This document shows positions 59,682 to 64,000 of a DNA stretch of 64,000 bases, in pieces. Numbering within the stretch: position 1 is the stretch's first letter; every line of letters starts with the position of its first letter. This stretch comes from Kytococcus sedentarius DSM 20547 (GTDB taxonomy: Bacteria; Actinomycetota; Actinomycetes; Actinomycetales; Dermatophilaceae). The stretch covers positions 558,001 through 622,000 of the forward strand of contig NC_013169.1 in assembly GCF_000023925.1 (NCBI RefSeq). The letters run 5' to 3'. Made by a program: the position numbers and the translations under genes. A model generated the notes under the pieces. It searched no databases, had not been told where the DNA came from, and was given only the letters and a program-made list of their open reading frames with translations.

Positions 59682-60221
59682 CGCGTCAGTATGGGGGCTC
59701 GTCCGTCCTGGTCCCCACTGCGCGCCGTCCTCTCGGCGGGAGCGACGCGTCATCAGGCGTGCTGAAAACTCTCGAGCCCCGCGATGACGTCACGCGGGGT
59801 GCGGTCTGCGGGCCTCGGGAGCGGGTGTGCTCCGTGGAGCACGCTCGTCGCCGGACACGCGCAGGCGCCGAGGAGGAGGAGGCCGGTTGTACAGGCTGCC
59901 CACTTGATGAGCTCTTGGTGGAGAGCGGGTGGCGGCGGGACCAGGATTCGCGTTGGGCCTGCAATTCGGGTGACCGGTGGCGAGGGTGCGGGTCGCGTGT
60001 GTCCCGTCGTCCGTGGGGGGCGACCCACGCTGGGGCGAACGCCTCGCGACCCGAGCGGTGATCGAGGACCTTCGGTGGACCTCCGTAGAGAGTTCGAGAA
60101 CCCCTGCCCGGCCTTGAAAACGGTGGCTTCTCGCAGGTCGCGGGGGGTCTACCGACGAGATCGGAGACCGATAGAGCCGTCCGTAGTGGACTCGCGAGGG
60201 CGCATGCTGCGCGCTGTTGGG
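59682..60221. other. 540-bp intergenic region at the edge of the accessory island
   Basis: No convincing gene is present. It holds the FNT promoter, a hairpin CCCCGCG-N9-CGCGGGG (59777-59799) whose loop is ATGACGTCA, and a second hairpin GTGCTCC-GT-GGAGCAC (59827-59842). Overlapping frames in several registers show no family-like sequence. Base composition falls across this region, so it is a likely junction between core and acquired DNA. Confidence 0.6.
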
Positions 60222-60569
60222 ATGACTCAAACCTTTCTGAGCCCGGCGCAGGTGGACGAGCTGGTGGCCCTCTACGAGGAGGGCGCGACGCTGGTGGACC
60301 TGGGTGAGCGGTTCGGCATCCATCGCCGTACGGCTGCCGCGCATCTTGTCCGCCGCTCGGTCCCGATCCGCAGGCTCGGTCTCGATGAGCGCCACCTCGC
60401 AGAAGCTGTTGAGTTGTACTCCGGCGGCTTGACGCTCATGGAGGTGGGGCTGCGGTTCGGGGTCAGTCAGCAGGCGGTGAGAAGAGCGCTAGCCGCCAAG
60501 GGTGTCGAGATTCGCTCCAGCGGGCGCCGTCAACTCGCGGTGAACCAGTCTGCGCGCTCGGCACCGTAG
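60222..60569 (+). CDS. Tandem helix-turn-helix protein (recombinase-tail like)
   Basis: This 115-residue protein has two successive HTH units: VDELVALYEEGATLVDLGERFGIHRRTAAAHLVRR and LAEAVELYSGGLTLMEVGLRFGVSQQAVRRALAAKG, each a Hin/resolvase-type motif. Such double HTHs form the C-terminal tail of some actinobacterial serine recombinases, but no catalytic domain is encoded here. It may be a recombinase remnant or a small DNA-binding regulator. ATG 60222 is chosen. An in-frame ATG 60204 would add six residues. It is convergent with the PIN-like gene. Confidence 0.6.
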   Translation: MTQTFLSPAQVDELVALYEEGATLVDLGERFGIHRRTAAAHLVRRSVPIRRLGLDERHLAEAVELYSGGLTLMEVGLRFGVSQQAVRRALAAKGVEIRSSGRRQLAVNQSARSAP

Positions 60570-60614
60570 TCACCTGTCGCTCCCGTCGATGGACCAGGGT
60601 CATCACCTTCGCCG

Positions 60615-61613
60615 TCACAGACTCGCGGCGACCAGCACCTCGACCAGCTGTTCGGGTTCGAAGATGAGCTTGGTGTCGAACCGCTCATCGAGCCTGCCGT
60701 CCTTCTCCCGCGTCAAGGCTCGGACCCACTGTTGCTCGGTGAACACCACGTCGCAGTAGACCGCGGGGACGGGAAGTTGGACGACGTCGATGAAGTCGTT
60801 CGCCTTCCACTTCTGGTGCGAACGCGGATGGAGGTGCTTGCTCACTCGCAGAGCGTTCGTCACCCGGCGGGTGGGAAGGGACTCAACGAGTTGGAGCAGG
60901 CCAACTCCACCCAAAGTCTCGGTCACTTCCGTGGCGCTGATGCCCGCGGCCGTGACCCGCTCACGGATGGCCGGGGCGATATCGTTGAAGTCCGAGTGGA
61001 CGACCGCAGGAAGCAACTCAGCGCGCGGCACCTTCCGCCGCGCGATCTCCTCAGCGACGCTAACTTCGTGCCGCACGAACAAGCCACCCCAGTTGACTAA
61101 GTCGAGTGGTAGGCCCGCGCGTGCGTGAGTGCTTGGACCTGCGCGCAGCAGTAGCTCTTCGAGCGGGCGGTCGATCGGAGTTCGGAGGTCGCTGCTCTTG
61201 TCTTCGGAGGCCGTCCGTTGGTCGGTCCGCCTCTTGGAGTTGTGGACGCCGCCGGCAGTCAGGTGCGCGATGCCTCGTCCGAAGACGCGAGGCGCAGTCA
61301 CATCGTTTGGCCGTCCGAAACGGGCGCGTAGGGCGATGTCGATCTCGTACTGAAGAAGTTGCTTGGGTGTGGTGATGGCGTCGAAGTCGGACAGCTCGAT
61401 CATCGTGTCGACCAGGCGGTTCCTGGAGCCGTCGTTGTGGTTCTTGGCTGTCTCCCAGTACCGATACAGATCGAGGGGGAACGATGCCACTTCGTGCGCC
61501 CTTGCGGCCCGGCACATCTCGAGTGCATCGCGGTAGCGCGCGCCGTCCGGCCGGCCATGCGCTGCTCTGGCGAGACCGATCCATGCGAACTGATCGAGGT
61601 AGACGTGAAGCAC
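60615..61613 (-). CDS. PIN-like nuclease candidate
   Basis: This 332-residue protein begins MLHVYLDQFAWIGLARA with Asp7 in the first strand, followed by FPLDLYRYWETAKN (Glu54). Near the end it has KANDFIDVVQLPVPAVYCDVVFTEQQW, with Asp273, Asp276, Asp288 and Glu293 as candidate metal ligands. Together these suggest a PIN-like fold with a large helical insert. PIN domains cut RNA. I recognise this only at fold level. The GTG start follows GAGGG. It lies downstream of a large helical-repeat gene on the same strand (139-bp gap), likely in one transcript. Lower GC than the core marks it as acquired. Confidence 0.6.
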   Translation of the reverse strand: MLHVYLDQFAWIGLARAAHGRPDGARYRDALEMCRAARAHEVASFPLDLYRYWETAKNHNDGSRNRLVDTMIELSDFDAITTPKQLLQYEIDIALRARFGRPNDVTAPRVFGRGIAHLTAGGVHNSKRRTDQRTASEDKSSDLRTPIDRPLEELLLRAGPSTHARAGLPLDLVNWGGLFVRHEVSVAEEIARRKVPRAELLPAVVHSDFNDIAPAIRERVTAAGISATEVTETLGGVGLLQLVESLPTRRVTNALRVSKHLHPRSHQKWKANDFIDVVQLPVPAVYCDVVFTEQQWVRALTREKDGRLDERFDTKLIFEPEQLVEVLVAASL

Positions 61614-61649
61614 GGGACCCTCAGATCACAACGGAGCACATGCTCGAAC

Positions 61650-61772
61650 TCACATCCACAGGCGTGCTCCCTTCCACTTGAGGGTGGTCGAGTGTGCTAC
61701 CCGCGGCTCCATGTTCATGGGCACTCCCGGATTCGGCCGTTGTCGAGAGAATCTAGGCGGGCCCGTTGGCAT
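61650..61772 (-). CDS. Possible small ORF between the island genes
   Basis: A 40-codon frame starts inside the end of the large gene (ATG 61772) and ends 36 nt before the PIN-like start, with MNMEPRVAHSTTLKWKGARLWM as its last part. No ribosome-binding site or family is recognised. It is listed because the 139-bp gap is otherwise unexplained. Confidence 0.2.
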   Translation of the reverse strand: MPTGPPRFSRQRPNPGVPMNMEPRVAHSTTLKWKGARLWM

Positions 61773-64000
61773 CGCGGACGCGGTGGCCGTCGTCGCCGTG
61801 GTCGGCGGGGATGTCGAGCAGTGTGAGCAGGTTTCCGTCCTTGTCGATGCAGTCGAGTAGGTCACGGTGTGGGATGTCATCGGTGGCGTATCGGTACCGG
61901 CGGGTCAGGAGGTCACGCATCGCGTTCTCACCGGGAGCTTCGGGCCGTCCGCGGAGGTTCCACCGGCGGGCGACTGACACCGTCTGAGTGAAGATGTGCA
62001 TGTCGACGACGTCGTCGGTGAACTCTGATAAGGGCATCGTCGGGGAAGCTGATGTCTCCGGTTCGCGGGCAAGGTCGAGCGCTCGCCGGGGGTCGCCTAC
62101 ACCGGGTCGTAGTCCCGCGCGTTTCATCCGCCAGTTCATGGAGGTGTTCACTAGAGCGACGAGGATTTGCCAGTCGAGCCAACCATCATTGCGTAGCCTC
62201 ACGATGGTCGCTCGCCCGGCTTGATCAGACAACAGCCGTGGGAGCGTGAACCGCAGGGCCTCATTGGCAACTTCGTACCGTTCGCGGATGGCCTGAAGTG
62301 ACTCATCGCGGTCATAGCCCGGACCTGTAACGGTTGAGGCCGGCAAGTGCTCACACTCGGTGGGTTGGAAGGCGTCGGAGGACGACGGCCTGCTTGCGTC
62401 AGCGCATCGGGCGTAGTGATCGTCGTCCAGTAGGGCGGCGGTCTCCTCGTAGGGGCGACCGATAGACACCTTGTGAATGAGGCCGCCTCTGAACAAGGGC
62501 TCTAGGAGGTCCTGGAGTTCGTCTGGTGGGCGGACATGGACGGCGTGGAGCAGTTGGTAGCACATCGCGAGGATCGCCCGGTTGTGCGCTTCGGGGTCCG
62601 TCAGCGAGTTCGATAGGACAACGTTGGCCAGGACCTCGGGCCTTGAGTCGTCGATGTCGATCGAGTCGTCTTCTCGGCTAGCGCCGGGTCTCACGTCCAC
62701 GGTGACCCGAATTGTGCTCTTGATCAGGACCGGGTTCATCGGTGCGATGTCAGCCAAGAGGACCTGGAGCGCGGCGACGAAGCCCTCGGCGGTCAACACC
62801 GTCTCTCGGTTGTTGTCGAACTGGAAGGTCCAGCGGACGCCGAGGGCTTGGAAGTCGATGAGTCGTCTGTGGCCGACATCGCCGAGGAGTGGGCCAGCAA
62901 GCTCCTCGGCGGCGCGAGCCTGGAACTCGTGCTCGGTCATGTCGAACCGTGAGTCGTCGTGCTCGATGACTTCGACCAACTGTTTGTACCAGTTCGTCGT
63001 CTTGAGGGCTGCTTCGATCAGTGGTTCAAGCTCGGGCCAGAATGTGCGGATGCCGGCTAGCTCCAAGGTGGCATTGGTGTCGTGTGCTGCGAGGTCGGGG
63101 TGTTTGTCGTAGTCGAATGGATCGGTCAGCATCTGGGCGCGCGCCAGGAGTGCGACTTCGGTGAGTCGGGCCGCGTCGACCCAGGCGCCGGCCTGCTGGG
63201 CGTACTTGGCTGTCTCCAGCAGGGCCTTGGGCACGTGCACCTGCACGTCGATGTCGTCGCTCATCATGGCCAGGGCGGCGGCGGTGCACGCGTACATCTT
63301 GGCCGCGTACATCAGCCCGAGGCCGGCGTATAGCGAGCCCAGGTAGCGCATCGTGAGGATGGCACCGTAGATGGTGTCCCCGTTGAACCATTGTGCTTTC
63401 GCGTTGTGCAGTTCGGCCAGAGCCTTCAGGGGCTGACCGGCCCTCACGAATGCCATCCCGCGATCGCGGCATCGCTCGGCGGTGGCGGAGTCGCCCTGTA
63501 CTTGGGCCAGCACGATGTCGAAGCCGTCACGGACCTTTTCGTAGTTGGTGTGCCCGGAGGCTGCGGGCGCGTACATCGTGAACAGACGCGCGAGTTCGCT
63601 GGACGAGTAGGCGCGAGCCCTTGGCAGTAGGTCGACCAGCTTCTCCAGAAAGGACATCGCCGCGTCGAAGTCGAACAGGTACGACACCGGCAATGCCGAG
63701 GTATCGACGGCGAACTCGTCGAGTTGCACTCCGACGTTGGAGGCAACCGCGGCAGGTGGGGGCTTGCCGTCAGTCGTCTCGATGCGCTCCCAGTCCGGTA
63801 CCAGGTGGGTGAACGCGAGTGTTCCCGTCAAGGTCGCCGACCGCACCGGATGCGTCACCGAATCTGTGGCGTCGAGTAGGTTGACGAGGTGCGACCGTAG
63901 CCGCAGCATCGCAGCACTGATCTCGGATGCCTCGGCCTTCGCGACCCCGGTCATCCACATCGTCCCCCAGTACGCGCAGAGCGTCACAGCATCGTCAACG
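61753..64000 (-). CDS. Large helical-repeat protein, 5' end beyond window
   Basis: At least 748 codons are open on the minus strand. The frame continues to the right edge (VDDAVTLCAYWG precedes the first start-like codon), so the N-terminus is missing. The visible part is mostly helical, with TPR-like pairs such as CRDRGMAFVRAGQPLKALAELHNAKAQW, YLGSLYAGLGLMYAAKMYACTAAALA and LLETAKYAQQAGAWVDAARLTEVALL. It ends in an acidic tail. No ATPase, nuclease or protease motif is seen in this part. It could be a sensor or scaffold for the PIN-like protein. GC and codon use differ from core genes. Confidence 0.65.
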   Translation of the reverse strand, partial: VDDAVTLCAYWGTMWMTGVAKAEASEISAAMLRLRSHLVNLLDATDSVTHPVRSATLTGTLAFTHLVPDWERIETTDGKPPPAAVASNVGVQLDEFAVDTSALPVSYLFDFDAAMSFLEKLVDLLPRARAYSSSELARLFTMYAPAASGHTNYEKVRDGFDIVLAQVQGDSATAERCRDRGMAFVRAGQPLKALAELHNAKAQWFNGDTIYGAILTMRYLGSLYAGLGLMYAAKMYACTAAALAMMSDDIDVQVHVPKALLETAKYAQQAGAWVDAARLTEVALLARAQMLTDPFDYDKHPDLAAHDTNATLELAGIRTFWPELEPLIEAALKTTNWYKQLVEVIEHDDSRFDMTEHEFQARAAEELAGPLLGDVGHRRLIDFQALGVRWTFQFDNNRETVLTAEGFVAALQVLLADIAPMNPVLIKSTIRVTVDVRPGASREDDSIDIDDSRPEVLANVVLSNSLTDPEAHNRAILAMCYQLLHAVHVRPPDELQDLLEPLFRGGLIHKVSIGRPYEETAALLDDDHYARCADASRPSSSDAFQPTECEHLPASTVTGPGYDRDESLQAIRERYEVANEALRFTLPRLLSDQAGRATIVRLRNDGWLDWQILVALVNTSMNWRMKRAGLRPGVGDPRRALDLAREPETSASPTMPLSEFTDDVVDMHIFTQTVSVARRWNLRGRPEAPGENAMRDLLTRRYRYATDDIPHRDLLDCIDKDGNLLTLLDIPADHGDDGHRVRDANGPA

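Follow-up and report, generated by a model that had tools for sequence, protein, structure and literature searches.

A large repeat gene and a small gene with a predicted PIN-like fold lie side by side on the minus strand at the end (positions 60222-64000) of a 64,000-nucleotide (nt) window of the Kytococcus sedentarius DSM 20547 genome. The window is the whole stretch of DNA analyzed here, G000:C1:558001-622000 of the single-contig, 2.79-Mb genome (G000). We consider it fairly probable that these neighbors are two immune genes of the nuclease type, each self-sufficient, within an actinobacterial defense island. A sequence-only reading of the window had proposed a pair, in which a large sensor or scaffold works with a small nuclease. 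Both genes proved real, and searches of Pfam, NCBIfam and PADLOC give neither a name, in agreement with that reading. The pair itself was dropped as the default reading because the genes part outside one shared block of DNA and the large protein has a nuclease-like head of its own. What is new is how the large family is built and how widely split-PIN genes are spread, rather than a two-gene system. The two families are plausible defense nucleases; enzyme activity, trigger, target and a part in phage defense are suggested for both genes by their setting and architecture.

The split-PIN protein

The product of the smaller gene is a protein of 332 amino acids (aa). Its candidate catalytic acids, whose order had drawn attention in the sequence-only reading, are found in two places: D7 and E54 in the N-terminal part and D273, D276, and D288 in the C-terminal part, with a helical insert of about 200 aa between them. 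In an alignment of 14 members, which includes the window copy and two close copies but neither L005 (truncated) nor L012 (frame-broken), D7, E54, and D276 are kept in every sequence, D273 in 13, and D288 in 12. The motif YxD7 near the N terminus is likewise present in 14 of 14. Given this conservation the acidic residues are not a chance pattern. The gene is under purifying selection, with ratios of nonsynonymous to synonymous substitution rates (dN/dS) of 0.20-0.32 between close copies (three pairs).

An AlphaFold2 (AF2) model based on a five-row alignment was confident only at both ends, where a PIN core was seen with its strands and helices, and poor in the middle (about 200 residues). In a second structural comparison of this model the best 17 entries (Z 5.7-8.6) were VapC/PIN proteins or protein-only RNase P, and the next row had a Z of 4.5. 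The top match (Z 8.6, root-mean-square deviation 3.6) covered 127 residues of a 133-residue chain. Among the 17 were 1ye5, 1v8o, 2fe1, and 3h87, which we take to be PIN proteins; the protein-only RNase P matches are presumably PIN-type as well. Based on the conserved acids at both ends and these structural matches, the protein most likely consists of a PIN domain broken up by a helical insert, so that the PIN-like fold expected from the sequence was recovered by prediction.

Plasmids of Gordonia (71% identity), Rhodococcus ruber (48.5%), and R. pyridinivorans (42%) carry relatives of the PIN gene. More distant ones occur in Mycobacterium and Streptomyces, and others on plasmids of Mesorhizobium and Bradyrhizobium, in the Pseudomonas filamentous phage PfAC03, in an IMG/VR contig, and in a second phage contig beside an open reading frame (ORF) that by eye resembles a tape-measure gene. 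The copy in PfAC03 (L058:9001-9948) is annotated only as a hypothetical protein. A DNA search of E. coli genomes gave no match to the Pf gene, a search that distant homologs such as DS-3 would escape. The settings of the copies are diverse: one immediately follows drmC in a DISARM operon, others lie beside patatin/ThiF/E2 genes, near a SIR2 gene, or among transposases (e.g., in Mycobacterium paragordonae), and some neighborhoods hold no defense gene. Library searches with the relatives, including an NCBIfam scan of 11 members, returned chance-level matches only. Neighbors vary from locus to locus and no partner is constant; for this reason the window protein may act as a single protein. It would then be a PIN ribonuclease whose domain is split between the two ends of one chain. 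The helical insert may keep the nuclease silent until infection, and the released PIN domain would cleave RNA (tRNA or mRNA), stopping phage growth.

The large repeat protein and its head

The window holds only the C-terminal part of the larger gene. Extension of the sequence past position 64000, as had been proposed, gave the N terminus: the gene runs 887 nt beyond the window edge (to G000:C1:622887), and the whole protein has 1044 aa (L002:4754-7888, L002 being a 20-kb stretch of the genome), of which 296 residues are encoded outside the window. The sequence-only reading had treated this protein as a sensor or scaffold; the nuclease-like head of the protein lies past position 64000, beyond what that reading covered. 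The helical repeats noted there were supported. In an AF2 model and by structural comparison, residues ~205-665 are TPR-like, with Z scores up to 12.9, values that helical repeats often reach without kinship; the protein also holds a strand-rich segment. The model was built on the L008 copy, 96% identical, since the window lacks the N terminus. dN/dS between close copies (0.17-0.22, six pairs) indicates purifying selection.

The head (residues 1-180) is marked by F28, E29, TGP48-50, GD55-56, D60, E62, K101, and D105. All of these are present in 17 of 17 aligned heads, namely 11 of the window's family, one from genome G177, and five from a sister family. The motif may be PD-(D/E)XK-like. Profile matches of the head in the PDB were limited to designed trefoil-knot proteins (27 residues, best E 7e-4). 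Designed knots, oxalyl-CoA decarboxylase and viral fusion proteins were weak library matches that we took as chance. A Walker A pattern was found in none of the 10 actinobacterial copies scanned; among 15 copies scanned in all, L025 has a strict and L026 a loose P-loop pattern, at sites where the others have none.

Seven additional actinobacterial contigs hold copies of the large gene (61-96% identity), and Chryseobacterium has a distant copy. Twelve plasmid records also carry it, with Streptomyces, Mycobacterium, Agrobacterium, Ensifer, Bradyrhizobium (frame-broken), Blastomonas, and Hymenobacter among them. In viral contigs 69 stretches fitted a large-protein pattern and none was confirmed. 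The sister family consists of five plasmid proteins; its alignment with the head spans 163 columns (hhalign probability 99.2%) and that with the whole large protein 665 columns (99.9%). Its members (L051, L052, L053, L054, and L055) have 1063-1112 aa and no Pfam match. For the two window proteins there was no meaningful match in Pfam, PADLOC, NCBIfam, or PDB sequences. Fifteen relatives of the large protein gave nothing meaningful in the PDB or NCBIfam and one meaningful Pfam match, a Cap4 nuclease, with a second such match in another scan.

The same head type is fused to a P-loop protein in G177 (L034), where a Walker motif is present. From its sequence, and with no library match, we label this protein STAND-type with an Avs-like arrangement. 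The two Cap4 matches (PF14130; E 1.2e-6 and 4.9e-8, both over the Pfam cut-off) are in Bacteroidota relatives, L015 and L028, which bear the Cap4 head on a homologous body. From these two comparisons, of a shared head on a STAND-type protein and of Cap4 heads on homologous bodies, heads and bodies are seen to be swapped, a behavior known from immune proteins of the effector-sensor kind.

The neighbors of the large gene include a type I methyltransferase (L010), a Druantia-E-like helicase (L014), a restriction endonuclease together with CHAT and HEPN proteins, Shedu, and ABC-three-component genes. PADLOC scans of nine neighbor proteins from six loci gave a match for six; two in L013 and one in L014 had none. 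In L013 (Pseudarthrobacter) a different short PIN-like ORF, recognized by eye and without a PADLOC match, lies beside the large gene on the opposite strand (L013:9275-9736). We propose that the 1044-aa protein would be a one-protein sensor-effector, with a PD-(D/E)XK-like head on a TPR-like body that includes the strand-rich segment. The repeats may bind an intruder-derived protein or another cue, upon which the protein would change shape or assemble. The head would then cut phage DNA or, in abortive infection, host DNA.

Linkage of the two genes and the surrounding island

Three loci share a block of DNA with G000: L009 (7.6 kb, 96.6% identity), L012 (8.2 kb, 94.5%), and L008 (4.4 kb, 95.0%, with a separate 0.4-kb shared stretch further upstream). 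Their large proteins are 93-96% identical to that of the window. In a survey of 396 genomes of the phylum, 10 had PIN, two had the large gene or at least its head (G177 by the head only), and G000 alone had both. These counts are too small for a test of linkage, and for this reason targeted co-occurrence searches were run, over plasmid records without host chromosomes and genome assemblies that may miss short contigs. Among 18 genomes or records that carry the large gene, PIN was found in 4; the other 14 are five genome assemblies and nine plasmid records. The large gene was found in 3 of 17 with PIN, a set that leaves out L009 and the phage records L030, L031, and L058 and includes some genomes with only partial PIN matches; the remaining 14 are seven genomes and seven plasmid records. 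Every linked case is a holder of the block. The two genes are not an obligate pair, and their linkage is found only on one recently moved block. The sequence-only reading had held that genes lying consistently apart, in ordinary metabolism, would count against it. Outside the block the genes are indeed apart, but their settings are mostly mobile elements and defense genes rather than ordinary metabolism.

Several observations argue against two self-sufficient genes. Both AF2 models are weak: the mean predicted local distance difference test (pLDDT) is 55.5 for the PIN protein and 57.5 for the large protein, falling below 50 for residues 1-96 and 153-186. The head model is unreliable, and we therefore make no claim about the fold of the head. 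A Foldseek search of the PIN model against the PDB and viral models gave no match at E <= 0.001. The PD-(D/E)XK-like label of the head is our own reading and was given by no library, and the usual E-x-K site is altered, to T-x-[QNE] in the window's family (11 members) and to T-x-Q in the G177 head. All five sister-family proteins have S-x-K at this site, and the sister family is a better candidate in which to look for nuclease activity of the head. Finally, the main stretch shared with L008 consists of the large gene and PIN, without the ATPase and helix-turn-helix (HTH) genes that flank them in G000, neither of which came up in the fetched L008 locus, and a gap of 139 nt separates the two genes in all four block holders. 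Together these two facts could hint at a functional pair.

In such a pair the large repeat protein would sense infection and release or activate the PIN ribonuclease. It has in its favor that the genes are adjacent and on the same strand throughout G000, L008, L009, and L012, and that both are under purifying selection. We nevertheless regard it as unlikely, for in most searched holders of either gene the other was not found, the four linked cases amount to one block, and the large protein has a nuclease-like head of its own. L012 has an open large gene but a broken PIN frame, although the break might be a sequencing error. A variant restricted to this lineage, in which a repeat sensor with a DNA-cutting head also releases the split-PIN RNase so that DNA and RNA would both be destroyed upon a single trigger, would fit L008 best, since its main shared stretch is these two genes only; we give it rather little weight.

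It is also possible to view the PIN protein as a VapC-type toxin with an antitoxin encoded nearby, either the HTH protein or a small ORF (Table 1). The predicted fold is closest to VapC toxins, and the HTH gene, reported by the sequence-only reading and present as an ORF, moves together with the block in two of the three other holders. This gene is, however, convergent with PIN rather than co-directional, and lies outside the stretch shared with L008. A 76-aa frame is a co-directional candidate, which stops 36 nt ahead of the PIN start and is open in four of four block holders; it overlaps the end of the large gene, and in L008 the second half of the frame has diverged and is poorly kept. In PfAC03 an Arc-like DNA-binding protein gene precedes PIN on the same strand, and in the phage's description "TA" is the sole defense listed for it (PMC11878078); the same phage also has an annotated RelE/Phd pair. 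The window protein is more than twice as long as the matched VapC chains (332 residues versus 130-147), and the neighbors of its relatives differ between loci. A toxin-antitoxin pair thus seems improbable, and self-sufficient action of the PIN protein is preferred.

The defense setting suspected from the sequence was borne out beyond position 64000. On the minus strand, read 5' to 3', the island comprises a CapV patatin, a CD-NTase (SMODS), a Cap2-type E2-E1 protein, a small ORF region, an AAA ATPase matching the PADLOC candidate PDC-S06, the large protein, and PIN, followed by the convergent HTH gene. The first three form a type II-like operon of a cyclic oligonucleotide-based antiphage signaling system (CBASS), with CD-NTase (SMODS, 3.7e-33), effector (CBASS_lipase, 266 bits at a cut-off of 200), and Cap2 (PADLOC E1-E2, 9.2e-292); no separate Cap3 gene was noticed in the ORF list at the operon. 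The GC content is lower than in the surroundings, as the sequence-only reading had stated: 0.639 at 60222-64000 versus 0.719 for the whole window, and values of 0.62-0.68 extend roughly 12 kb beyond the edge. Since other parts of the window also show smaller dips (0.66-0.69), low GC is weak evidence by itself. PIN and the large gene sit in a low-GC defense island beside the PDC-S06 ATPase and CBASS.

It could be argued that the ATPase, the large protein, and PIN form one operon-like system, since their order and strand are the same in G000, L009, and L012 (shared stretches of 7.6-8.2 kb, 94-97% DNA identity). We consider this very unlikely: the gaps between the genes are about 140 nt, and no copy of the ATPase came up in the fetched loci L008, L010, L011, L013, L014, and L015.

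Table 1. Features at the end of the window and in the adjoining sequence (window positions unless prefixed)
Feature	Position	Strand	Remark
Split-PIN protein, 332 aa	60615-61613	minus	from ORF list
Large protein, C-terminal 748 residues in window	61753-64000	minus	open frame up to window end
Gap between large gene and PIN gene, 139 nt	61614-61752	minus	same length in L008, L009, and L012
76-aa frame	61650-61880	minus	overlaps end of large gene, stops inside the 139-nt gap
HTH protein	59784-60569 (listed ORF); 60222-60569 (shared part)	plus	convergent with PIN gene; shared part is the last 115 codons, common to L009 and L012
AAA ATPase, 873 aa, PADLOC candidate PDC-S06	L002:8025-10646	minus	beyond 64000; PADLOC match E 2.8e-117
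Type II-like CBASS operon (CapV, CD-NTase, fused E2-E1 Cap2)	L002:11316-15162 = G000:C1:626315-630161	minus	beyond window

Further upstream of the CBASS operon, also beyond the window, there is a Mutator-type transposase. An ORF adjoining it (L002:18385-18909) has a sub-cut-off match to IrrE/M78 peptidases and a CapP match (E 3.5e-7) and may be what is left of a CBASS regulator. Elsewhere in the genome, a 572-aa protein (G000:C1:2069169-2070854; L059:5155-6873) matched the NCBIfam model DS2_3_antiphage with 493.6 bits, under the cut-off of 630 bits. Its gene adjoins an ORF that by eye resembles a cation transporter, with no obvious defense operon.

Comparison with known systems

Among the open-license PMC papers listed in literature searches, DS-3 was closest to the PIN protein, and nothing was recognized on the large family. 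DS-3, from DefensePredictor, is a published one-protein split-PIN defense system; its authors report that a cognate antitoxin is lacking and propose that the protein inhibits itself until infection occurs (PMC13092281). The window protein is likened to it, as described there, by architecture alone, being also split N- and C-terminally, with acids 7/54 and 273-288 and both model ends confident. It differs in coming from an actinobacterial defense island, which suggests its defense role. A DS-3 model was not found in NCBIfam, where NF053871 and NF053872 are DS2 models and NF053873 does not exist. If the likeness holds, the PIN family would extend a DS-3-like one-protein split-PIN architecture to actinobacteria, rhizobia, and phages. 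VapC PIN toxins resemble the window protein in predicted fold and in the order of acidic residues, but they lack its length and long insert, and the window protein has no evident antitoxin gene.

For the large protein, PDC-S06 is a separate matter, matched by the neighboring ATPase, which is a gene distinct from both the large gene and PIN. The Cap4 nuclease is linked to the family through the two Bacteroidota relatives that carry it on a homologous body, whereas the window copy has another head, unnamed in Pfam. Avs and NLR-like STAND nuclease proteins combine an N-terminal nuclease-type head, an NTPase, and a C-terminal repeat body. The large protein also has an N-terminal nuclease-type head and a C-terminal repeat body that may serve in sensing, and its head type occurs on the STAND-type protein of G177; it differs in that the 10 actinobacterial copies scanned have no P-loop motif. 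We regard the large family as the more interesting of the two, as a repeat protein without a detectable NTPase and with exchanged nuclease heads. If the family is active, it would provide a test of whether the NTPase of Avs-type proteins is needed for nuclease activation by a repeat sensor.

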